A stretch of 41,117 bases of DNA, taken from positions 1 through 41,117 of the IMG/VR virus record IMGVR_UViG_3300008113_000795. One strand, written 5' to 3'. The notes beneath the pieces are model-generated. The model did not search any database. It had not been told where the DNA came from and saw nothing but the letters and a program-made list of their open reading frames with translations. Every line of letters starts with the position of its first letter. Position 1 is the first letter of the stretch. This stretch comes from a virus. Position numbers and translations under genes: made by a program. Of the stretch, positions 22,787 through 35,141 are shown piece by piece.

Positions 22787-23182
22787 ATGGCCAAAGTTAA
22801 GACTTTTGAAGAATACTTTCCTAAGTGGATGGGCGACTCGACTGAAGACCGTAAGAAGTCACAGATGAAGAAACAAGCCAAGATGGACGATGACGATCCC
22901 AGAGCCTACAAGGAATTGCCCGGCGACACTAAAGGAAAGAAGAAACTCAAGACATCTGTTCACACTAAGAGCTATCATGAAAAGTTCGGCAAGAAGAACG
23001 AAGAAGCCGAAGGTGCCATGTATATGTCTGCTTTGGAAAACATCTTAAGAAACACTGAAGAGGTCAAAAGTATGATCACGCCCGAGATGGACTTACCTGC
23101 CTGGGTACAAGACAAGATCACAATCGCTGAACACAACATGGATGCGATAGCAGGATATCTTAAATCACCGAACCGCGATTAG
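22787..23182 (+). CDS. Charged small protein with capsid-targeting-like N terminus
   Basis: A 131-residue Lys/Asp/Glu-rich protein. Its N terminus, AKVKTFEEYFPKWMGD, resembles the leader shared by the putative internal head proteins at 27794-33925 (T-(Y/F)-(E/D)-(E/D)-(F/Y)). The C-terminal half (SALENILRNTEEVKSMI, then PAWVQDKITIAEHNMDAIAG) is helical and similar to small conserved phage proteins of unknown function. It may be a prohead core or internal protein. It is first in the rightward cassette, one base before the ATP-grasp gene. Confidence 0.6.
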   Translation: MAKVKTFEEYFPKWMGDSTEDRKKSQMKKQAKMDDDDPRAYKELPGDTKGKKKLKTSVHTKSYHEKFGKKNEEAEGAMYMSALENILRNTEEVKSMITPEMDLPAWVQDKITIAEHNMDAIAGYLKSPNRD

Positions 23183-23183
23183 A

Positions 23184-24272
23184 ATGAATCCCACAAGACA
23201 ACATTTGCTGAACAGCTTTAATGAATATGTTCTTTTAAGTTACCCACAGGCTCCAGAAGAGTTCAATAAAGTTGTTATGTTCACGACGATGAGTCAAGAA
23301 CAAGAACAGAATCCTGTAATCGTCGAAAAGATCAAACGAGTTTTCGTCTACCAAGACGACGCTGATGACTACGCTTGCTCCAATATGGAAAAGCAAGCGC
23401 CTTTGCTTCTTTGGGGAAAGAAGACTTTGATCGAAGAAAGTCAAGTCCTGGCAATGACGACTTTTGCTCCTTTTCCTAAAGGAATTTACAATGACCCAAG
23501 AGGAATCATAACGAGTAAGAAAGATCTTACAGAGATTTACCAAAAGGAAGATTACGATTTCTTACCAAAGACGTATTTTACCAAAGCAGATGCTAAGAAG
23601 AAGCTCAAGTTTCCTTTGATAGCGAAGTCTTTGAATTCGTTTCAGTCTCGCGGTGTTGAAAAGATCAATAATGCTAAAGAACTCGATGCGCTTTCCGATG
23701 AGTATGATTTGTTCCAAGAGCAGATTAAGATATCACACGAGTATCGTTTCTTGTTCTTTAGAGGATATAAGACAGAGATCACGCTTCTTGCGGCGTTTCA
23801 CAGAGACCCAGTGAACGACAAAGCCAAAGGACTGCGCGAGGCTATGACCTTTGACTCGATGAAAGAGAAAGATGCTTCTGAGTTTTCTTGGACACAGGTG
23901 TCCATCTATGAATTCAATCAAAAACAATTGTTCGACATCGCAGAGGCTGTTTTCAAACACAACCCTGGTCTAAACGTCGTAGGAATCGATGTTGCTTACC
24001 AAAATGGAGATTTCGCTAGACCTTACTACATCGAGCAGAACATCACGCCAAGTATGATTGCGAATGTTCCTTTCCTGGTGTACAAGTTCATATACGAGGA
24101 CGCTTACTATCCTATGAGTCCTTATTCAATCAAAAGGCTCGAACAGCTTTCTTTGGGCTATATGATTAAGAGGTTTAAAGAAGACGATCTTTTTAATGTT
24201 GATGCTGAAATTTCAGGAACCGGCATGCGAGGTCTTTCATACTCCGAAATGTTAAATTCAAAACCAGCATGA
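23184..24272 (+). CDS. ATP-grasp ligase-like protein
   Basis: A 362-residue protein with the ATP-grasp layout: FPLIAKS at 143-149 with the nucleotide-binding lysine near 148, the strand-loop DLFQEQI at 175-181, and the C-terminal metal/phosphate motif VVGIDVAYQNGDFARPYYIE at 265-284 followed by QNITPS, which provides the D, E and N ligands. ATP-grasp enzymes join a carboxylate to an amine or thiol through an acyl-phosphate; RimK-type members add amino acids to proteins or peptides. The N-terminal ~125 residues are a less conserved pre-ATP-grasp-like domain. It overlaps the CapA-like gene by four bases (ATGA), so the two proteins are made together and may act on the same product. Confidence 0.8.
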   Translation: MNPTRQHLLNSFNEYVLLSYPQAPEEFNKVVMFTTMSQEQEQNPVIVEKIKRVFVYQDDADDYACSNMEKQAPLLLWGKKTLIEESQVLAMTTFAPFPKGIYNDPRGIITSKKDLTEIYQKEDYDFLPKTYFTKADAKKKLKFPLIAKSLNSFQSRGVEKINNAKELDALSDEYDLFQEQIKISHEYRFLFFRGYKTEITLLAAFHRDPVNDKAKGLREAMTFDSMKEKDASEFSWTQVSIYEFNQKQLFDIAEAVFKHNPGLNVVGIDVAYQNGDFARPYYIEQNITPSMIANVPFLVYKFIYEDAYYPMSPYSIKRLEQLSLGYMIKRFKEDDLFNVDAEISGTGMRGLSYSEMLNSKPA

Positions 24273-25321
24273 TACTATCATACGACGACTTTACCAAGAA
24301 ACCTTTCCGAATGGGAGTTTTCGGCGACATGGGTTGTGAGAGCGTCCAAGTAGGAACCGTTGTGAACAGCGATCCTCTTATGTATATTCGTAAGTGGATG
24401 AACACTCTTGATTTTACCGTAGGACAGCTGGAGACCACGTTTAGCGGATACGAATCTGACTATCCTAAGTTCTCTTCTTCAGATTTGTTTGCGAACTATC
24501 TGAAAGGCAAATTTGACCTAATCTTAACTGCAAATAACCATTCGCTGGATGGAGGCGTAAATGGTGTCCTTAGAACGAACAAAATTTTAGACGAAATTGG
24601 TATACCGCATATTGGAACAGGTACACCAGAAAGACCGCGTATAACATACGACGTCAAGTTAAACGGTTACGACATAACATTCTTAAATTACGTTACATCA
24701 ATCAATGGAGAAAAAGGTGAAAAAGAAGGTGCGATTTTCGCGGACGTTGATCCCAAAGAAATCCCAACAGGAATCGTCAATTTTTACGATGAAGCCCAAA
24801 TTAAAGAAAAGATTGATATTGCGAAAAAGAGGTCTGAGTTTATCATTCCTACAATCCATCAAAGACATTCAACAAAAATAAGAGAGTACGGAGAATATGC
24901 TTCAGAAAAACAGATCGAGGATTTGGAACCAATACTCGACATGGGCGCCAACATTGTCATCGGCGCTCACCCACATGATTTTCAGGGCGGCAGACTTTAC
25001 TCTGAAGATCGTATCATTGTTTTTTCCTTAGGCAATTTCTTTAGCGCCATGACCAACGAAAAGTATCCGGTGAATGCTGGATGTGTGATGGTCATATCGG
25101 TAGACTTCTACCAAAACACAAGATACACATTTTTGCCCGTCTGTACATATCAGACACAAGGTATGTACTATGTACTACCAATGGCGCCAATCGAAATGGG
25201 CGCCTATAAATTCATTACTGATGAAGATCGTGTTAAGATTGTGTTGAAACTCCAAGAGATCCGTGGAGTCCTAAGTCGTTGTGATCTTGAGGAAGAAGTG
25301 ATTCAACCTCAGTATTTGTAA
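24269..25321 (+). CDS. CapA/PgsA-like metallophosphoesterase-fold protein
   Basis: A 350-residue protein of the CapA (poly-gamma-glutamate capsule) family, whose fold is that of calcineurin-like phosphoesterases. Seen in order: GVFGDMG at 16-22, QLETTFSG at 53-60 (usual NLExP, here altered), TANNHSLDGG at 87-96, a diverged central motif (IHQRHS, then EYGEYASEKQ), IGAHPHDFQ at 231-239 and FSLGNFF at 252-258. There is no signal peptide or membrane anchor, unlike cellular CapA, so it acts in the cytoplasm or in the virion. The N terminus MILSYDDFTKK looks like the internal-protein leader LLSYTDFINE. CapB and CapC are not present. The 3' end overlaps the convergent gene by 89 bases. Confidence 0.85.
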   Translation: MILSYDDFTKKPFRMGVFGDMGCESVQVGTVVNSDPLMYIRKWMNTLDFTVGQLETTFSGYESDYPKFSSSDLFANYLKGKFDLILTANNHSLDGGVNGVLRTNKILDEIGIPHIGTGTPERPRITYDVKLNGYDITFLNYVTSINGEKGEKEGAIFADVDPKEIPTGIVNFYDEAQIKEKIDIAKKRSEFIIPTIHQRHSTKIREYGEYASEKQIEDLEPILDMGANIVIGAHPHDFQGGRLYSEDRIIVFSLGNFFSAMTNEKYPVNAGCVMVISVDFYQNTRYTFLPVCTYQTQGMYYVLPMAPIEMGAYKFITDEDRVKIVLKLQEIRGVLSRCDLEEEVIQPQYL

Positions 25322-27695: not shown

Positions 27696-27703
27696 TATTT
27701 ATA
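27696..27703 (-). promoter_or_regulatory. Putative late promoter, exact TATAAATA
   Basis: The minus strand has TATAAATA, identical to the T4 late-promoter consensus, 15 bases before the ATG at 27680 and followed by the A-rich AAATAAAGAAACTAT. It lies between a terminator and a gene start, the position expected for a real promoter. Confidence 0.6.
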
Positions 27704-27737
27704 TTCACAAGTTGGAACTTGGTTTTTGGACATAGAA

Positions 27738-27767
27738 AAACCCGGAGGATAGCGAATCTCCGGGTTT
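27738..27767 (-). terminator. Intrinsic terminator after the internal-protein operon
   Basis: A perfect 10-bp stem AAACCCGGAG/CTCCGGGTTT (27738-27747 with 27758-27767) closes a 10-base loop. On the minus strand the stem runs into TTTTTC, as in a Rho-independent terminator. It lies 26 bases beyond the stop of the 388-aa gene and would end the leftward transcript that begins near 33940. The plus-strand T-run is shorter, so leftward use is favoured. Confidence 0.85.
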
Positions 27768-27793
27768 CAAGTTTGCCGTGACAAACTCCGGTC

Positions 27794-28960
27794 CTAAGCC
27801 GGTGAGTTGCTCTTTTCGAGTTCTGCGAGTTTTTTGATGCCTCGGTCAACTCCTAAATTTCCTTGTGCCCAGATTCCAAATCGAGCGTTCTTAAAGCCAA
27901 AAGATCCACCTTGGCCATTTCTGAAAGAAACATATATCGCAGGCCAGTAAGGATCAGAATCCGACATCTTTAGTTTACCGCCGGTCAACACAGGGTTGTA
28001 CGTAGCGTGGCCGGACGGAGTTATTTCGTAAGCATTCTCAAACTGTTCTACTTTTGAAGGCGTGAATGTGATGTCGCCCTGCATGATAAGCTGAATGTTG
28101 TCAGCAGACCAATTTTTGTTGTTCGAAGAAGCGTCCGTACCAAACATTGCTCTGATACCTAGATCAATTTGGTCGGCTGGAATTTTTACTGCGAACTCTT
28201 GGCCGTTCTTAAGTTCTCCTCCAGTGAGTGTACGAATTCTTTCAATGAATTCTTTAGCAAAAGGATGATCTCTTAAATTGTCAAGACCGCCGTATTGTTG
28301 GAAATCTTTAGCAGTTTTACCGTCTTTGTGCGATATGTAGATCGGTGGGTTACCTTCGATCATAAACATAAAGTCAGCTTTAGGAGTGCCATCGACTTTG
28401 TCGACTCCTTCAAGAACCACTTCTTGGACGTTTGGAGTTGAGCTAAAGATCTCTCCGTGAATTGCTATTCTCACGGTTTCGTTGGGTCCTTTTAGTTTTT
28501 CCAGGTTTGCCTTGATGGCGTTGAGCGCCATCGTTTCTTTCTTTAAGCTGTCCTTTGGTGCCCAGAAAATTGCTTCTGGGTTTGCGTCCATCAAGTAGAC
28601 AACCAACGCTGCTCCTTTTTCGTAGCGGTTCGATGGCATCTTGCCTTCTACTAAACCGCTCATGATGTCGGCGACGGTTTTCTTAGCGTCTTTGGAAAAC
28701 TCTTCGAGACGAGCTCCTTGAGCAGAACGTATCTTTATGACTGTGTCGTAGACGGTGATTATGTTGCTGTTGTTGACCAGACCGGTGAATGACGCTCCAA
28801 GTTCTGATGCAAGATCTGTTCTTACATAGTTCATAAGATCAGCTTTTTTACCACCCAGTCTTTTCTCAAAGGCTACGAATGATGCCTTAAGAGCTTCGGG
28901 ATTGATACCTTCAACAAGAAGGTGCTCGTTTATGAAATCTGTGTAAGAAAGTAGTTGCAT
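27794..28960 (-). CDS. Putative internal head protein, possible PD-(D/E)XK nuclease
   Basis: A 388-residue protein. The N terminus LLSYTDFINEH (residues 3-13) matches the putative capsid-targeting leader, with predicted cleavage after E12. The central region has a nuclease-like pattern: D196 in KADFMFMIEG, then strand YISHKDG at 208-214 with K212, followed by AKDFQQYGG. This is reminiscent of a PD-(D/E)XK core (D...xSxK), though the acidic residue before the lysine is replaced by Ser/His, so the call is tentative. A packaged nuclease could attack host DNA or counter a defence system on entry. It is the last gene before the terminator. Confidence 0.55.
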   Translation of the reverse strand: MQLLSYTDFINEHLLVEGINPEALKASFVAFEKRLGGKKADLMNYVRTDLASELGASFTGLVNNSNIITVYDTVIKIRSAQGARLEEFSKDAKKTVADIMSGLVEGKMPSNRYEKGAALVVYLMDANPEAIFWAPKDSLKKETMALNAIKANLEKLKGPNETVRIAIHGEIFSSTPNVQEVVLEGVDKVDGTPKADFMFMIEGNPPIYISHKDGKTAKDFQQYGGLDNLRDHPFAKEFIERIRTLTGGELKNGQEFAVKIPADQIDLGIRAMFGTDASSNNKNWSADNIQLIMQGDITFTPSKVEQFENAYEITPSGHATYNPVLTGGKLKMSDSDPYWPAIYVSFRNGQGGSFGFKNARFGIWAQGNLGVDRGIKKLAELEKSNSPA

Positions 28961-29227
28961 TTACCTGTTTAGAATTTGATCGTATTCGTCGGCAACTTTG
29001 GTAGCTTTCACAGCTGCCTTGCTTCCGTCGATGTACTCGAGGATTCCGCTCTTGCTGATCCCGCGAACCTCGTGGTCCAGGGTCATGCCTCGGAAATGTT
29101 CTCTGATCATGGCTTGCGCCTGTTCGATCGTGTCTGCGTTCACTAAGTATGCTTCCATCTTAGCTCTTACTTTACCGGTGTCAAGATCTTCGCTTGTCAC
29201 TCTTACTCGTACTGTCCAATTACTCAT
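28961..29227 (-). CDS. DUF4494-like small protein
   Basis: An 88-residue protein whose middle (KVRAKMEAYLVNADTIEQAQ) resembles DUF4494, a small family found mainly in Bacteroidota and their phages. The family pattern is 'K-x-x-E-x-Y-L-V-x-A-x-x-x-x-x-A-E-x-x-I'. Its role is unknown. It is the only gene in this operon without the capsid-targeting-like leader. It abuts the next gene directly and has a TATAAAACAAC-type leader upstream (near 29260). Confidence 0.55.
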   Translation of the reverse strand: MSNWTVRVRVTSEDLDTGKVRAKMEAYLVNADTIEQAQAMIREHFRGMTLDHEVRGISKSGILEYIDGSKAAVKATKVADEYDQILNR

Positions 29228-29292
29228 GTATTGTTGTTTAAAGTTAATGATATTGTTGTTTTATACTTTAAGTGTTCTTTAGTTCCTCTTCT

Positions 29293-29565
29293 TTACGCGT
29301 ATTTGCTTAGTACGTCGAGAATCTTAATTGCTGCTGGTGAAGCCTTTATTCCACCACCGACGATTTTATCAAACTCTTCTACAGCCTTTTCAGGAATATC
29401 TGATATGTCTTTTCCGGTGGCAGCTTTGATCAGCTTTATTAGTCCGCTGACTTTAGAACCTCTATTCCAGTCTTTTTCGAACTCTTCAACAGTTGCGTCG
29501 TCGACACCTTGTAAAGTGTACTTGCCTTCGTTTAAGAAGTCGTCGTATGTGTGTATGTGTTTCAT
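29293..29565 (-). CDS. Putative internal head protein, 90 aa
   Basis: From the ATG at 29565 the product begins MKHIHTYDDFLNEGKY, a close match to the T4-type capsid-targeting leader, with predicted cleavage after E13 (LNE|G). The mature part (~77 residues) is helical and mildly acidic at first (VDDATVEEFEKDWNRG), then Lys/Ile-rich (GLIKLIKAATGKDISDIPEK). A longer frame exists upstream but lacks the leader. The ATGA overlap (4 bases) with the preceding 122-aa gene confirms this start. The specific function is unknown. Confidence 0.65.
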   Translation of the reverse strand: MKHIHTYDDFLNEGKYTLQGVDDATVEEFEKDWNRGSKVSGLIKLIKAATGKDISDIPEKAVEEFDKIVGGGIKASPAAIKILDVLSKYA

Positions 29566-29930
29566 TTCTTTACTTTGTTTGGTTTCATGTATAGCGCTCC
29601 GACGATTCCTCCATTGCTCAAGATCGTTGCCTTGATGATTTGTCTTTCTGGACAAGTCCAAGCGTTACCTTGGTAGTTGCTTGATCTATATATTTCCGTC
29701 CAACCGGCTTTCTTCCAATCATCACCTTTGACGTTGTAAGCTTTCTTGATGTCGTCGAGCTGTCTTTGGTAGTCCTTGTCCTTGAACATAATGAAGACTT
29801 CGTAGTCTTTTCCCAAAGTAGGTTCCACGACTTTCTTCCTCATCTCGGAGTCGGAATAAGGATGTTCTCCACCCAACATTCCGTACATGCTTTCGTTGAT
29901 GAACGATTCGAATGACTTTATGTGATTCAT
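29562..29930 (-). CDS. Putative internal head protein, 122 aa
   Basis: A 122-residue protein beginning MNHIKSFESFINESMY; cleavage is predicted after E13 (INE|S). The rest is a small alpha/beta domain (TLGKDYEVFIMFKDKDYQRQ) and a C-terminal section with NAWTCPERQIIKATILSNGG. No known family is recognised. It overlaps the PAP2-like gene by four bases and the 90-aa gene by four, so the three are translated in sequence. Confidence 0.65.
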   Translation of the reverse strand: MNHIKSFESFINESMYGMLGGEHPYSDSEMRKKVVEPTLGKDYEVFIMFKDKDYQRQLDDIKKAYNVKGDDWKKAGWTEIYRSSNYQGNAWTCPERQIIKATILSNGGIVGALYMKPNKVKK

Positions 29931-30637
29931 TTTGTTGAAGATATTTGATTATTCGTAACCAATAAGTTGTTCTCCCAGATGACATTAGAAATCATTCTGG
30001 ACACCTCTGTATCCGATGGGAAGTGTATGCCCATCTTTTCGCGGCTGTCGGCTACTTTCTGTCCAAAGGCACGAATCTCTCCGGCGATCTGCGGATACTT
30101 TCTTGCGTAGTATTCTGACATCACGAATCCTGTTAGGGCGTGACCGCTTGGGTAAGCAGCGCTGCAAGCGTCCGTGTGGATCAAAGGGTACAGAGGAATG
30201 CCCATCGCGTAAGCGAGTTGGTAAGGTCTTGGGCGATTGATGAGGTGCTTGAGATAGAACACCAGAGGTTCGGTCTGTGTATCGACCATAAAGTATTCTT
30301 CCATCGTTTCCTCAATGCCTTTGGCCATCAAGAAGTCGATGAATGCCTGTGGAAGTTCTCCTTCGACGAATCTCGCAAAAGTCATGTCATCGGGAGTAAC
30401 CTCTGACATCTTGTTCATCAAGACTTCCAAGTCTTTCTTGGTAGTCTCGCTACTGTTCAGAGGTGCTTCGTTGATGATCTTGTCCGCAAGGCCGGTCTCG
30501 ACGAACCATCTCTTGGGATTGGAATCTTTTTCTGCGACTTCATACAGTTCCAGTGTTGGGTTTCCGTATCGGATCCCATCGATGCCTAAGTTCGCAGGCA
30601 TCACATTTTCATTTAGAAACTCTGCGTACTTTTTCAT
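29927..30637 (-). CDS. PAP2-family acid phosphatase with capsid-targeting-like leader
   Basis: A 236-residue protein from the ATG at 30637 (TAATG coupling with the preceding gene). The leader is MKKYAEFLNEN, with predicted cleavage after E10. The PAP2 catalytic signature is complete: K130-x6-R137-P138 (KHLINRPRP), PSGH at 163-166, and S198-R199-x5-H205-x3-D209 (SREKMGIHFPSD). PAP2 enzymes remove phosphate from lipids, nucleotides or small molecules through a phospho-histidine intermediate. There are no transmembrane helices, so this is a soluble class-A-like acid phosphatase. If packaged, it would enter the host with the DNA; the substrate is unknown. Confidence 0.85.
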   Translation of the reverse strand: MKKYAEFLNENVMPANLGIDGIRYGNPTLELYEVAEKDSNPKRWFVETGLADKIINEAPLNSSETTKKDLEVLMNKMSEVTPDDMTFARFVEGELPQAFIDFLMAKGIEETMEEYFMVDTQTEPLVFYLKHLINRPRPYQLAYAMGIPLYPLIHTDACSAAYPSGHALTGFVMSEYYARKYPQIAGEIRAFGQKVADSREKMGIHFPSDTEVSRMISNVIWENNLLVTNNQISSTK

Positions 30638-30927
30638 TATGCTTGTCCAGGTTGTACAGGTCCAGCCATGATACCTTCGCACTCTTTCGCCAACTCGCCC
30701 ATCATCGCTTCGTTCAGCTTAGCATATTCCCCAAGATATTTCTCGGCTACTTCTGCTTTGTCTTCGCTCTCGTGATATGACTTCATTTCGTTCTTGGCCA
30801 TCTCGTAGCATTCTTTAAGAGCTTCCCAGCACTTTTCAGACACCACTTGCTTGGTAGCTGGTTCGTGAGAGTCTTCGGCTACTTCTGTGCCTTTAACGAA
30901 ATCTTCATAGGTTTTTACTGCTTTCAT
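30637..30927 (-). CDS. Putative internal head protein, 96 aa
   Basis: A 96-residue helical protein beginning MKAVKTYEDFVKGTEVAEDS, a variant of the internal-protein leader, with possible cleavage after E15. The mature part is Glu/Lys-rich (AEVAEKYLGEYAKLNEAMMG; note a second LNE). It shares one base with the PAP2-like gene (TAATG) and follows the 930-aa gene by 14 bases, in which an ATATAAA motif is seen. The function is unknown. Confidence 0.6.
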   Translation of the reverse strand: MKAVKTYEDFVKGTEVAEDSHEPATKQVVSEKCWEALKECYEMAKNEMKSYHESEDKAEVAEKYLGEYAKLNEAMMGELAKECEGIMAGPVQPGQA

Positions 30928-30941
30928 GTTTTTGTTGTTTT

Positions 30942-33734
30942 TTATATGTTATTGACAACTAAGAATCTTAAGTTGTCTCCTAGTCTGTTTTGGTATTCGC
31001 CTGTCTTAAATTCTTTGGTGATCGACGGAAGTTTCTGTAGGAACAGCTCGTATGCGTCGGGATTGTCGTAATCGTTAAAGAAAATTACACTGCTGAAAGG
31101 TACTTTCAGATCTTTTGCCGCTTTTTCTACTTCTTTAGGTAGAGACTCTTTGTATGTCCATCTGTCCCATGTGTCCAGCGTGTTTGCTTTCAGGTCGCTG
31201 AATCTTGTGGCGACTGAATTGTACAAGCTGCGAAGTTTAGGATTCAAATCCGTTTGGTCTTCGTTAAGTTTCTTGTTGCGAAACTTTGCAGAGGACATGA
31301 GTTCATAGAACTCTCTGTCCATGTTTACGCCAAGATTGTTAGTGATCCATTCATCGATCACACGTTCATTTTCAGATTCTCTTAAAGATGAGTGTTCTCT
31401 TAGGTAGCTTTTCCTAAGTTCGTCGACGTATGTATGTCTTACGTCTTCTTTCTCGTTGATGAAAGATTTGTAGTCGAACAGTTCTTCACGACTTTCTCTG
31501 GCACCTCCTGCCTCTATCTTATCCTGTTCTTTCAACCTTTTGATCTTAGCAGCGATATCTTGTATCTTTTTGTGAGGGCTGTCTTCTCCTTTGAAGAATT
31601 CGTCAAAGTCGTGTTGTAGTTCGTGCTCCATGTCGTGAAGCTTTTTCTCCAGCTCTCTTGGTTTTTCTATTGCTGCAAAGTTTTCATCACCCGCTTTCTT
31701 CTTAAGACTTTCCTTTTGTGAGTCGAGCTGTTTTTGCAAGTCATCGACCTTGCCTTGGTAGTAATCTTTTTCTTCAGGGTCGGATTCTTTCTTCATCTTA
31801 GACTTCATTGATTTAAGATCGTCCAAAATATCTTGCAGGCCTTCTTCTTCGTCTTTGGCTCCTGATTTTTTAAGGGCTTCTTTTGCAGCTTCCTTTGCCT
31901 GTTTGATTTCTTTTTCAAACTCGCTTATCTTAATCTTCCTTGCGCGCATGTCTTTGTGAAATGCGATGGTCTGGTCATGAAGATCCGCTTTTTCTTTCAG
32001 AAGTTTTTTGAGTTCTTCGTCATCAGTTTCTTCGGCAAGTGTTCGATCTTTTTCGGCTTCTTCCTTCTCTAGTTCGATTGCCTTCGAGTGATTGACGTTT
32101 TTACCCATTGCTTTGTCGTGAAGGATGTGTTTGATGTGCATGACTCCGAAGTAGACTCCAAGAGCCACGGGCACCCAGTGTAAGATGGGCATTGATGTCT
32201 TTGCCAAAGATAGGGCAAGTGATTCTAATGCGCTTGCTGCCATTCCCGCCAAGCTCATGTGAAAGAATCCTGCAATTTTACTGTGTTCTCCGAGGACACC
32301 TGATGCGACTATCGATTCTGTCGCCAGACCTAAGATTATTGCTCCAATCGCAGCGATGGTTATCATCAAGAAAACACCAGGTCCTCCCAGCTTCTTAACA
32401 CATGCTGACAAGAACTTAAGTCCTTTCTTAAGTCCGTTTTCTGCTACCCACTCAACGATAAAGACAGGACCTTGTAATATGATCCTTCCTATTTTTCCTA
32501 GAATCTTCCAAACAGAAGATTCACCGTCTTCTGCAGTTTTTTCTGCTTTAGTTGCCTTTTCTTCCGCGCGGTTTACAGGATTGCCTTCGGGCTGTTCTGG
32601 TTGTTTTGCTTTTTCGATTGCTGCTTGATCCTTAGCGGCGAGTTCTTCTTCTCTCTTTTCTTCTTCAGGAGTTTCGTCCTTCTTTTCTTTATCGTCTTTC
32701 ATTCCGAACGCCTTGCCGATTTTGTCGAGAAGACCTTCCGTCATGTCCATCTCAGACAGAGAATTGCTGATGAAACTTTCATTAACGGATTCATTAAGAG
32801 CTTCTGCTCTTTTTCCTATCTCAACAGCTGTACAGAAAGCAAAGAATTCCAAAAGATCTTCTTCATCTAAAGTCTGAAGATATTCAAGAACATCGTAAGC
32901 GTGTTTATATGATTCGTTGGGTTTGTTGGACTGCTGTTGACCAGATTTGCCTTTTCCTTTTTCTTCGGCCATCTTTTTCTGTATGTCATCGAGCTCTTCC
33001 TTTTTGCCTTCTTGGTCAGCACCTAATGCGGTTTGGGCTACTCCACCAGCATTCTTAACACCGTCGTTTATTCCTCCGCCCACGCCTTTACCAGTGAACC
33101 ATTCAACCGTCGCTCCTAAGTCTGCCTGATCTTTGTCAATTTGTTCTTCGCTGTGTTGACGAAGTTTTCCAGCTCTTTCTTCAGCTTTGCTTTTGACACC
33201 ACTCACAACTTTCTTTCCCATGCCGACCGCGTACTTAAGTACTTTCTTTGCACCTTCGGCTGTTGTTTTGATCATTGCTTTGATGAAAGATCCTATGTTG
33301 GACACAAGTTTCCAGGCTGCTTTTAGTCCTTTTGCACCGTAACCGTACGCTTTTTTGGCACCGCTGACTATCGAACTCCAGAATCCTTCATTAATGTCAT
33401 CTGTTGTTATGAAAGCATAGATGCCTTCCCATATCAATTCGTCAAGTGCGATTTTCCCTTCTTCTGTTACCGAAGTCCATTCCTTGTCTTCGTTCAAAGA
33501 TTCGTTCATGACCGGAAGCAGATCGACCATCTTGAACGAGTTTTCCGAAGCACTGTACTTAAAATCGTAGTTTTGGTTGCTTGCTCTATCGAGATAATCT
33601 CTGATGTGATCCGGCATCTCGACTGAATCTAATATGGCGTTTGCTTCATTAAGAGTCATCTTCTTGGATTCGTTGACAGCTTGTGTCATTTCAAGCAAGA
33701 AGTTCTCGTATGATTTGAAATTTGTCTTTTGCAT
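30942..33734 (-). CDS. Large putative internal head (poly)protein with repeated protease sites and hydrophobic core
   Basis: A 930-residue protein. It starts with the leader NFKSYENFLLE (5-15) and then carries many (L/I/V/M)-N-E tripeptides: VNE 20-22, LNE 28-30, MNE 76-78, LNE 80-82, INE 114-116, LNE 313-315, VNE 317-319, INE 759-761 and LNE 823-825. One lies in a second full leader copy, FDYKSFINEK (753-762). Such sites fit the T4 gp21 prohead-protease rule. Residues ~454-536 contain about three hydrophobic helices (VFLMITIAAIGAIILGLA; LHWVPVALGVYFGVMHI), and ~553-745 is a long charged coiled coil. It may be a processed core protein and/or a membrane-active ejection protein. Confidence 0.65.
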   Translation of the reverse strand: MQKTNFKSYENFLLEMTQAVNESKKMTLNEANAILDSVEMPDHIRDYLDRASNQNYDFKYSASENSFKMVDLLPVMNESLNEDKEWTSVTEEGKIALDELIWEGIYAFITTDDINEGFWSSIVSGAKKAYGYGAKGLKAAWKLVSNIGSFIKAMIKTTAEGAKKVLKYAVGMGKKVVSGVKSKAEERAGKLRQHSEEQIDKDQADLGATVEWFTGKGVGGGINDGVKNAGGVAQTALGADQEGKKEELDDIQKKMAEEKGKGKSGQQQSNKPNESYKHAYDVLEYLQTLDEEDLLEFFAFCTAVEIGKRAEALNESVNESFISNSLSEMDMTEGLLDKIGKAFGMKDDKEKKDETPEEEKREEELAAKDQAAIEKAKQPEQPEGNPVNRAEEKATKAEKTAEDGESSVWKILGKIGRIILQGPVFIVEWVAENGLKKGLKFLSACVKKLGGPGVFLMITIAAIGAIILGLATESIVASGVLGEHSKIAGFFHMSLAGMAASALESLALSLAKTSMPILHWVPVALGVYFGVMHIKHILHDKAMGKNVNHSKAIELEKEEAEKDRTLAEETDDEELKKLLKEKADLHDQTIAFHKDMRARKIKISEFEKEIKQAKEAAKEALKKSGAKDEEEGLQDILDDLKSMKSKMKKESDPEEKDYYQGKVDDLQKQLDSQKESLKKKAGDENFAAIEKPRELEKKLHDMEHELQHDFDEFFKGEDSPHKKIQDIAAKIKRLKEQDKIEAGGARESREELFDYKSFINEKEDVRHTYVDELRKSYLREHSSLRESENERVIDEWITNNLGVNMDREFYELMSSAKFRNKKLNEDQTDLNPKLRSLYNSVATRFSDLKANTLDTWDRWTYKESLPKEVEKAAKDLKVPFSSVIFFNDYDNPDAYELFLQKLPSITKEFKTGEYQNRLGDNLRFLVVNNI

Positions 33735-33748
33735 AGCTTTGCTTAAAA

Positions 33749-33925
33749 TTAGAAATCGTTGTCGATTCCGTCTTCGTCATCGACTTCTGTTTCTGGATTG
33801 TTCATATCGCCATCGACGTAAATTTCATCGCCGTCTTTCTTCTCTTGGTCAATCGCCAGTTTTCTAATGTTCTTGGTCTCAAGATCACCTATGAATTCTT
33901 CAAAGGTATGTAGGTGCTTCTTCAT
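33749..33925 (-). CDS. Small acidic putative prohead-core/internal protein (58 aa)
   Basis: A 58-residue protein beginning MKKHLHTFEEFIGDLETKNI, another variant of the internal-protein leader, followed by an extremely acidic tail (ETEVDDEDGIDNDF). Size and acidity recall the T4 prohead-core peptide precursor gp67, but homology cannot be claimed by eye. It is first in the internal-protein operon, 14 bases after a GATAAATA promoter-like site, and ends 14 bases before the 930-aa gene. Confidence 0.65.
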   Translation of the reverse strand: MKKHLHTFEEFIGDLETKNIRKLAIDQEKKDGDEIYVDGDMNNPETEVDDEDGIDNDF

Positions 33926-33947: not shown

Positions 33948-33957
33948 TCAAAAAGAA

Positions 33958-33989
33958 AAGACCTTCCCTACATAAGTAGAGAAGGTCTT
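33958..33989 (-). terminator. Intrinsic terminator after the DUF932-like gene
   Basis: A 9-bp stem AAGACCTTC/GAAGGTCTT (33958-33966 with 33981-33989) is extended by an inner CTAC/GTAG pairing after one mismatch. On the minus strand it is followed by TTTTCTTTTTG. It begins 18 bases beyond the stop of the DUF932-like gene and separates it from the internal-protein operon. Confidence 0.88.
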
Positions 33990-34007
33990 GAGGATAGGTT
34001 GGAAAGA

Positions 34008-35141
34008 TTAGGCCATTTCTACCAAGCGAGGGTAGATAACTTTCGTTGGCATAGCAACATCTTCCAGGTCGAGCTCTTTTTTGAACAAGAGGTTGGAAGC
34101 CGTGATCTGCAAGTCGGTGCGATCGCTACGGTCCATCATGATTTTCTCAGGATGCGAAGCGATGTACGTAAGCAAGTTAAAGAAGTCGTAAGCATTGATA
34201 CCGGTGTTGGCGGTAGTCTTCCACTTGCGGCTCTTTTGTGTGATATCCACGCCGTATGATTTGAAGAACGGTGCATCATCAAAGTAGTTCATGATGATTT
34301 TTTCGTAACGATCATTTTCGTTGCGAGATTCGAACCAGTTGCGGAAGTGGTAGAATTCTGCCATCGAGATGTTGTTGTTCTGCAAGTGCTGAACCGCTTG
34401 CTGCAGCTGAGCTGGCAAATTTTCTTGCCCAAACTTTAGAGCTTTCTCGATGACCGACTGGATGCGACGGTTGTTGTACTTGGCTTGCGAGATGTTGGAA
34501 CCAAATCCGTACTCGGTAGCAGTGTTACCGTTCTTGCAGACCAAGCGCTCAAAGAAAGGAGCGTAGTTGAACTGCAGACCTCCGAAGGTAAAGCGATCAC
34601 CCATCTTCCAGATGTCGATGCCGGTTCCGAATACGTCGGTATCAGAATTGTTGTCCAACAGAGTCAAGTTGAAAAGTTCGCGTCTGCTGTCGAAGTCGAA
34701 TCCTTTCAAAGAATAGTCCTTTTCGGAAGTGGCCAAAGTATTTGAGATCCACTCGATGTACTGAGATGCGTCTCCAGAATCTTCGCCTTTCTTGCGATCG
34801 TTGTGACCGTAAACATCGGTGATTTCGATTTCTCCGTTGTCGTTGGGGATCATCTTGGCGTAAAGAGTTTGTTCTGCTTCGGCCTTCTTAAGACGTTCAG
34901 AAACATTGCGCCAGTCTTCGGGACTCATCTTGTGAGCGAGGTCGGTGAAGTTTGGACGAACTCTTAATGCGCTAAGAACGTTGCGAAGAGCGCGTCCTGT
35001 CACGGGCATACCTCTTAAAGAGATTCCGTTGTCGATCGTCAATTCGCCCATCTTAAACTCACGAACTGAGCGGTTGGCGATTTTTTCAAGGATTGGAGCG
35101 GACTGCTCCTGAATTTGTTGGATAACTTGTTGATTATTCAT
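34008..35141 (-). CDS. DUF932-like phage protein (monocistronic)
   Basis: A 377-residue protein. The segment FGGLQFNYAPFFERLVCKNG at ~200-219 resembles the 'L-R-L-V-C-x-N-G' core of DUF932 proteins, which are frequent on phages and plasmids but functionally uncharacterised. Residues ~60-100 (VRPNFTDLAHKMSPEDWRNV) may be a helical N-terminal domain, and the end is a mixed domain (DLQITASNLLFKKELDLEDV). The gene has its own leader (an AATATAAC element near 35160-35168) and a strong terminator, so it is likely expressed independently and perhaps abundantly. Codon choice looks more uniform and GC-richer than its neighbours. A capsid protein was considered and rejected. Confidence 0.45.
   Translation of the reverse strand: MNNQQVIQQIQEQSAPILEKIANRSVREFKMGELTIDNGISLRGMPVTGRALRNVLSALRVRPNFTDLAHKMSPEDWRNVSERLKKAEAEQTLYAKMIPNDNGEIEITDVYGHNDRKKGEDSGDASQYIEWISNTLATSEKDYSLKGFDFDSRRELFNLTLLDNNSDTDVFGTGIDIWKMGDRFTFGGLQFNYAPFFERLVCKNGNTATEYGFGSNISQAKYNNRRIQSVIEKALKFGQENLPAQLQQAVQHLQNNNISMAEFYHFRNWFESRNENDRYEKIIMNYFDDAPFFKSYGVDITQKSRKWKTTANTGINAYDFFNLLTYIASHPEKIMMDRSDRTDLQITASNLLFKKELDLEDVAMPTKVIYPRLVEMA

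Follow-up and report, generated by a model that had tools for sequence, protein, structure and literature searches.

The closest described counterpart of the locus analyzed here is the set of internal head proteins of phage T4, which start with a capsid targeting sequence (CTS). For IPIII of T4, residues Y4 and F7 are the main determinants of targeting and I8 and E10 those of processing; with D at position 10 processing is blocked and targeting is unaffected (PMC9026906). IPI enters the host by injection and counteracts its defence (PMC9026906, PMC9391042); it has been proposed that the CTS enables T4-like phages to load various proteins (PMC9026906) and that the internal proteins counter first-response defences (PMC9391042). 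The jumbo phages phiKZ and SPN3US also package and eject many proteins and have a protease for prohead maturation; the propeptides of these proteins, in most cases of more than 100 residues, are cleaved at [AS]xE-type sites and contain no short common tag (PMC5694885). DarA of P1 and related head-associated anti-restriction proteins are likewise head-carried counter-defence proteins (PMC12810830). They differ in using another assembly route. For DarA-type proteins we know of no short CTS of the type reported below. A literature search, conducted without most subscription papers, found no description of such leader sets beyond the T4-type internal proteins and SPN3US/phiKZ.

The window (the whole stretch of DNA analyzed) is a 41,117-base IMG/VR fragment in which no head genes are present. 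Its tail genes are syntenic with those of LR756500.1, the 462-kb genome of an uncultured phage, and their further kin are found in Lak megaphages, in uncultured phages of 635-735 kb and in phages of Flavobacterium, Tenacibaculum, Chryseobacterium and Sphingomonas (PAU). Judging by the hosts of its tail-gene relatives, the window phage is inferred to infect Bacteroidota. The minus strand of the window contains an eight-gene operon (27794-33925), seven genes of which begin with variants of one short peptide. We consider it highly probable that this operon encodes virion cargo of a T4-like Bacteroidota jumbo phage, with targeting of the T4 type and with cleavage, packaging and ejection inferred.

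The shared leaders reported by the first-pass annotation on seven of eight consecutive genes were all found in place. Aligned by their core they read SYTDFINE (27794-28960), TYDDFLNE (29293-29565), SFESFINE (29562-29930), KYAEFLNE (29927-30637), TYEDFVKG (30637-30927), SYENFLLE (30942-33734) and TFEEFIGD (33749-33925), giving the consensus [YF]xxF[ILV]x[E/D]; only 28961-29227 lacks a leader. A strict regular expression for the seven-residue core, placed at residues 2-10 of the window ORFs, matched four times vs 0.12 expected from internal positions, and a fifth match appears once 29927-30637 is read from its correct start. A profile built from 210 IMG/VR leader proteins of other phages put precisely these seven at the top of the 52 window genes (scores from 22.1 to 7.7, 5.2 for the next gene and below 0 for the others); the training proteins had themselves been chosen with a window profile, so this ranking is partly circular. 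Two divergent genes on the plus strand, 22787-23182 and 24269-25321, have leader-like starts without the cleavage E (MAKVKTFEEYFPKWMGD and MILSYDDFTKKPF); they may be tagged and unprocessed, or may be due to chance.

The operon is bounded by two strong minus-strand hairpins, neither of which was equalled in any of 200 shuffles, and its proposed placement between two terminators is confirmed. The upstream boundary is the terminator of the preceding gene 34008-35141 (33950-33992, -22.1 kcal/mol, z -7.3) and the downstream end lies at 27733-27775 (-17.1 kcal/mol, z -4.9). The late-type promoter reported earlier is not supported. The motif TATAAATA occurs three times in the window vs 1.09 expected, a number reached by 12 of 100 shuffles, and its sole exact minus-strand copy (27696-27703) is located downstream of the operon. 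Upstream of the first gene there is no exact copy, only a 7/8 match, GATAAATA, found by eye.

The likeness to T4 internal proteins, pointed out in the first-pass annotation, held in a blind profile test. When a profile made solely from the window leaders was run on the 279 ORFs of T4, the highest scores belonged to gp61.1 (14.0) and to IPIII and IPII (12.6 each, second and third), and rank 4 scored 8.0; a separate profile trained on LR756500 returned the same top three of 279. The T4 leaders in question are MKTFKEFIKED (gp61.1) and MKTYQEFIAE (IPIII and IPII), whereas IPI (MKTFKEFTST), with T at position 8, was not recovered. The residues conserved in the window leaders are the four T4 positions for targeting and processing. 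If a CTS is defined by Y/F4, F7, I/L/V8 and E10 in an N-terminal tag some 10 residues long, five leaders comply fully, one has D10 and one has VKGTE. The phiKZ/SPN3US class is not matched, as the window leaders are only 10-15 residues long and end in F[ILV]xE. The F[LI]xE ending is also common to FLTE|A, the maturation site of the T4 major capsid protein gp23.

The T4 gene 61.1 (AF158101, 18966-19130) encodes a protein of 54 aa (MKTFKEFIKEDMVAG) that outscores IPII and IPIII, and on its sequence gp61.1 is predicted to be a further CTS protein of T4.

Both systems thus have in common the leader length and position, the four functional residues, the F[IL]xE cut motif, mostly small and unrelated bodies and, for the window in its relatives, a protease of family PF03420. 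They differ in scale, with three or four genes in T4 vs about 25-55 per relative genome, and in the wide range of bodies, many of them enzymes, that bear the leader in the relatives. None of the window bodies is homologous to T4 IPI, IPII or IPIII, and none had a match to any T4 protein in a blastp/phmmer set that included T4.

The gene products of the operon, all encoded on the minus strand, show no similarity to each other beyond the leader, in agreement with the unrelated bodies noted before. The most upstream gene (33749-33925) encodes an acidic protein of 58 aa with leader MKKHLHTFEEFIGD, whose last residue, at the point of cleavage, is D and not E. Its FIGD ending is a natural counterpart of the T4 IPIII D10 mutant, and since D at position 10 of IPIII blocks processing and not targeting, the protein is predicted to be targeted but poorly processed. 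The next gene (30942-33734) encodes a protein of 930 aa with leader MQKTNFKSYENFLLE and without a confident family. It is followed by a 96-aa protein (30637-30927) with a variant leader, MKAVKTYEDFVKGTE, in which VKGTE replaces F[IL]xE; its body aligns by blastp (41% over 59 aa) with the C-terminal region of the acidic 406-aa leader proteins of L229/L201.

The product of 29927-30637 (236 aa, leader MKKYAEFLNE) is a PAP2-superfamily phosphatase (Pfam PF01569, 1.7e-7). The superfamily pattern (KxxxxxxRP, PSGH, SRxxxxxHxxxD) is met, and in the alignment all three catalytic motifs are kept (K..RPRP, PSGH, SR..GIH.PSD). A basic protein of 122 aa (29562-29930, leader MNHIKSFESFINE, mature pI 9.2) is similar in both leader and body to L188:644-1333 (1.9e-8), the leader of which is MKHIKTFESFINE. 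Next come a 90-aa protein (29293-29565, leader MKHIHTYDDFLNE) and the leaderless DUF4494 protein of 88 aa (28961-29227, PF14902, 3e-7), which lies in the operon and is not predicted to be cargo. The last gene (27794-28960, leader MQLLSYTDFINE) encodes a 388-aa protein of the phrog_13937 family (1.1e-23) with the invariant residues K194, D196 and S210-H211-K212 (KxD...SHK). The best fold match of the C-terminal domain in its structural model (residues 139-388, mostly pLDDT >70) is the restriction enzyme HinP1I, a weak one (E 0.015), so that the protein is only possibly a restriction-endonuclease-like nuclease of the PD-(D/E)XK group, which is defined by an endonuclease fold with D...(E/Q/S)xK, and the activity is inferred. 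Scans of close relatives with the 388-aa and 930-aa proteins yielded no matches, and nothing usable came from a PDB sequence search with the 388-aa protein.

The leader is not confined to the window. Running a leader profile on the rest of the genome and on related phages had been suggested as a check; besides the window ranking given above, enrichment was seen in LR756500 and LR756501 (735 kb), where a strict motif at residues 2-10 was found 23 vs 2.1 and 55 vs 4.3 times, respectively, relative to the rate at internal positions (about 26 and about 55 leader genes per genome). The motif was near background in Lak-C1 (3 vs 2.2), PTm1 (2 vs 0.8) and pT24 (0 vs 0.7); MaF61 has no comparable leader set and MA9V-1 a few leaders at most. 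At the DNA level the pattern MKxIKx[YF][DE]xF[IL]NE was met in at least 120 IMG/VR stretches vs none for a codon-reversed control. Some loci are dense: L196 has 14 leader genes within 14.8 kb and L230 has 10 within 6.8 kb. The 210 IMG/VR leader proteins (at least 90 aa) have the consensus MKHIKLFExFINE and form 134 body families, 105 of them singletons; when 64 leader proteins, taken from three genomes, are aligned, only M1, F9 and E12 are near-invariant. The cultured Microcystis phage Mel-JY01 encodes a homolog of one leader protein, yet this leader was not seen in its first 50 kb, and no virion proteomics were found for leader-bearing members of the clade.

Two other origins of the shared starts can be judged on these data. 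Nothing but the common N terminus speaks for chance resemblance or for a single duplicated ancestor; the dissimilar bodies behind the leader, together with the motif enrichment and the reversed-pattern control, leave practically no room for either. The leader genes were also considered as one gene family, which was rejected for lack of similarity behind the leader (134 body families among 210 proteins). The location at start codons could also point to a DNA or mRNA feature, e.g. one acting in translation initiation or as a recombination hot spot, and short repeated identities would favour module exchange. We give this possibility next to no weight: in three data sets the leader F, I, L, N and E are encoded much as elsewhere in the genome, the single exception, confined to IMG/VR, being that TAC is overused for the leader Y, and the window leaders differ from each other at many synonymous sites. 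Conservation of the leader as DNA was rejected on the same grounds. As leader codons follow genome usage, selection acts on the peptide.

The behaviour of the leader as a unit separable from the body was seen in scans made from the body side. Searching with the PAP2 body alone, the leader removed, gave 14 homologs, nine of which have a clear leader (e.g. MKNYKEFITE, MKPIKLFEAFINE, MKHVKTYENFLNE and MKSFQEWLSE), four a diverged N terminus and one an ambiguous start; in some of the leader-bearing homologs additional sequence is present between leader and PAP2. Among the 34 homologs of the 388-aa body many have a leaderless start of cyanophage type, MASLS..., and L342 and L343/L344 have other leaders. 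In L349 to L353 and L355 MKTFKGFITE is placed directly before MASLSPKE (e.g. L349:1953-2915 vs the leaderless L331:2731-3696). Since MKTFKGFITE abuts the native Met, a cut behind its E would give back the start of the leaderless protein. We regard this natural graft as the strongest internal evidence that the leader is a cleavable add-on, cleavage itself being inferred from sequence. Retention of the body without the leader had been named as a refuting case. Such cases exist among homologs of the 388-aa body; there the leader has been gained or lost cleanly, as a module, and this speaks for a modular tag and not against it.

As the window has no head genes, the prohead protease was sought in relatives instead. 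Peptidase_S77 (PF03420, the T4 gp21 family) is encoded by LR756500 (44.8 bits), by all but one of 11 further relatives at E <= 0.01 (with six exceeding the curated cut-off) and by 25 of 50 IMG/VR contigs selected solely by the leader pattern, including 17 of the 18 that reach at least 130 kb, both contig figures being without a random-contig background. The search for a gp21-like protease proposed earlier was thus positive in the syntenic genome and in nearly all large leader contigs, and the window's own genome remains beyond reach in a 41-kb fragment. Second, weaker Peptidase_S77 matches were noticed in LR756500 (154951-155127), LR756501 (11386-11787) and LR756508 (156507-158102); perhaps they are protease paralogs, as reported for SPN3US, or, in LR756508, an insertion-split gene. 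The protease is also present, and the leader set absent, in Lak-C1 (MK250029), PTm1 (NC_049340) and pT24 (NC_049383), which may have another tag or none.

Sphingomonas phage PAU (NC_019521), a jumbo phage related through a baseplate gene, also has a shared leader on genes mostly adjoining its capsid protease, although the leader is of MKTLSKLYEAKLNE type and not Y/FxxF[ILV]xE. This leader starts 19 PAU genes (0 of 1253 internal Met controls), most of them at 100-114 kb (100248-113735) around the capsid maturation protease gp151, near the portal and major capsid genes. In the record gp142 and gp154 are annotated as internal capsid proteins and gp152 as scaffolding. The major capsid protein of PAU is reported, from N-terminal sequencing, to be shortened from 585 to 520 residues on maturation (PMC5646251), and this cut falls at most one residue away from an LME|N site. 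From these comparisons the PAU leader may be a second tag, either independent or strongly diverged. PDB sequence searches with the PAU internal and capsid proteins gave nothing usable, and the major capsid protein alignment was too weak for cleavage sites to be compared between phages.

Address tags often take the form of a shared N-terminal peptide, and the leader might direct proteins elsewhere, to the membrane, a phage nucleus or secretion. Such a destination is very improbable given that the leader lacks a hydrophobic core, agrees with the T4 CTS in all functional residues and co-occurs with the prohead protease, and that the PAU tagged genes cluster with head genes.

The tagged proteins of relatives are diverse. 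In LR756500 they include leucine-rich-repeat (LRR) proteins, a DUF2201 metallopeptidase and a PNK 3'-phosphatase (PNK3P), in LR756501 PPK2 and a nucleotidyltransferase-like protein, and elsewhere a methyltransferase, GNAT acetyltransferases, HD and phosphoribosyltransferase proteins and others. Six LRR members are present in the 64-protein leader set, three of which were checked singly; several leader-bearing LRR proteins are encoded within LR756500 alone, at 12-16 kb and 180-200 kb. Leader-bearing contigs also encode matches to Tad3 (9e-22) and Acb1 (1.7e-7). The Tad3-like (anti-Thoeris) protein starts with MKKVKLFEEFLAE. A leader or leader-like start was found at all six Acb1-like loci read, in canonical form at four (e.g. 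MKKIKLFEEFLNE), and the Acb1-like leader proteins have two HxT motifs. Judged by similarity, putative relatives of immune inhibitors, Acb1-like (anti-CBASS) and Tad3-like, bear the leader in several phages (L304-L310). The Acb1 assignments rest on E-values near 1e-8 within the 2H phosphoesterase superfamily, so other 2H enzymes are possible, and the contigs had been preselected for a leader somewhere, which biases the linkage to some extent.

The most serious alternative is that the leader tags the prohead core and that most tagged proteins are scaffold or core parts, degraded or needed for assembly only, instead of ejected effectors. In T4, gp21 breaks the core proteins gp22 and gp67 down into numerous fragments (PMC9026906). 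The 930-aa window protein has nine [LIVMF]NE sites vs 1.2 in shuffles (maximum 6 in 2000), a density 7-fold that of other window proteins, a second, internal leader copy (FDYKSFINE) ending at residue 761 and, by hydrophobicity, a single long hydrophobic stretch at about residues 448-482; it is a candidate for a multiply cleaved core or ejection protein. Several leader-protein bodies are small and acidic and could be assembly-core parts rather than cargo, and one PAU tagged protein is the one annotated as scaffolding. We nevertheless find a scaffold role unlikely for most, since there is no sense in a scaffold built of enzymes with intact motifs or strong matches (PAP2, PPK2, PNK3P, methyltransferase) or of homologs of anti-defence proteins, and 134 body families are involved.

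Under the preferred cargo explanation the leader proteins would be made together with structural genes, and the leader aromatics equivalent to T4 Y4 and F7 would bind the assembling prohead core. The gp21-type protease would then cut the F[ILV]xE end after E, and the mature protein would be retained in the head with the DNA and be ejected into the host. A transplantable leader would let each phage load its own set, comprising phosphatase, nuclease-like and membrane proteins in the window, their function being inferred, and anti-defence proteins, kinases and LRR proteins in the relatives; the injected products could act ahead of any phage gene expression. Against this explanation count the lack of head genes in the window, the two of seven leaders without the canonical E, the many 388-aa homologs and few PAP2 relatives without a clear leader, and the tail-gene kin Lak-C1, PTm1, pT24 and MaF61 without a comparable leader set.

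The first-pass annotation had seen here a cargo set of an undescribed kind. The principle is not new, having its precedent in T4; the scale is larger than was claimed, with dozens of cargo genes per genome in many phages. In the literature searched we found neither the tag in Bacteroidota jumbo phages nor its scale, nor cargo of the anti-CBASS-like and anti-Thoeris-like kinds, nor the natural graft of the leader.

It is probable that huge phages with the leader inject their hosts with a set of tools made beforehand. A broader proposal, to which we lean only slightly, is that the leader is a general head-loading code of mostly uncultured T4-like phages, many of them infecting Bacteroidota, by which dozens of enzymes and immune inhibitors are preloaded and host immunity is blocked before the first transcript. 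If this is true, leader-bearing ORFs of unassigned function are candidate anti-defence or take-over proteins. The function of most huge-phage genes is unknown, and a 10-residue tag that marks what is loaded into the head turns part of them into a testable list of about 25-55 proteins per genome. The tag links known immune inhibitors to delivery along with the DNA, and it would make the internal-protein principle of T4, there limited to three or four proteins, a major strategy of large phages.
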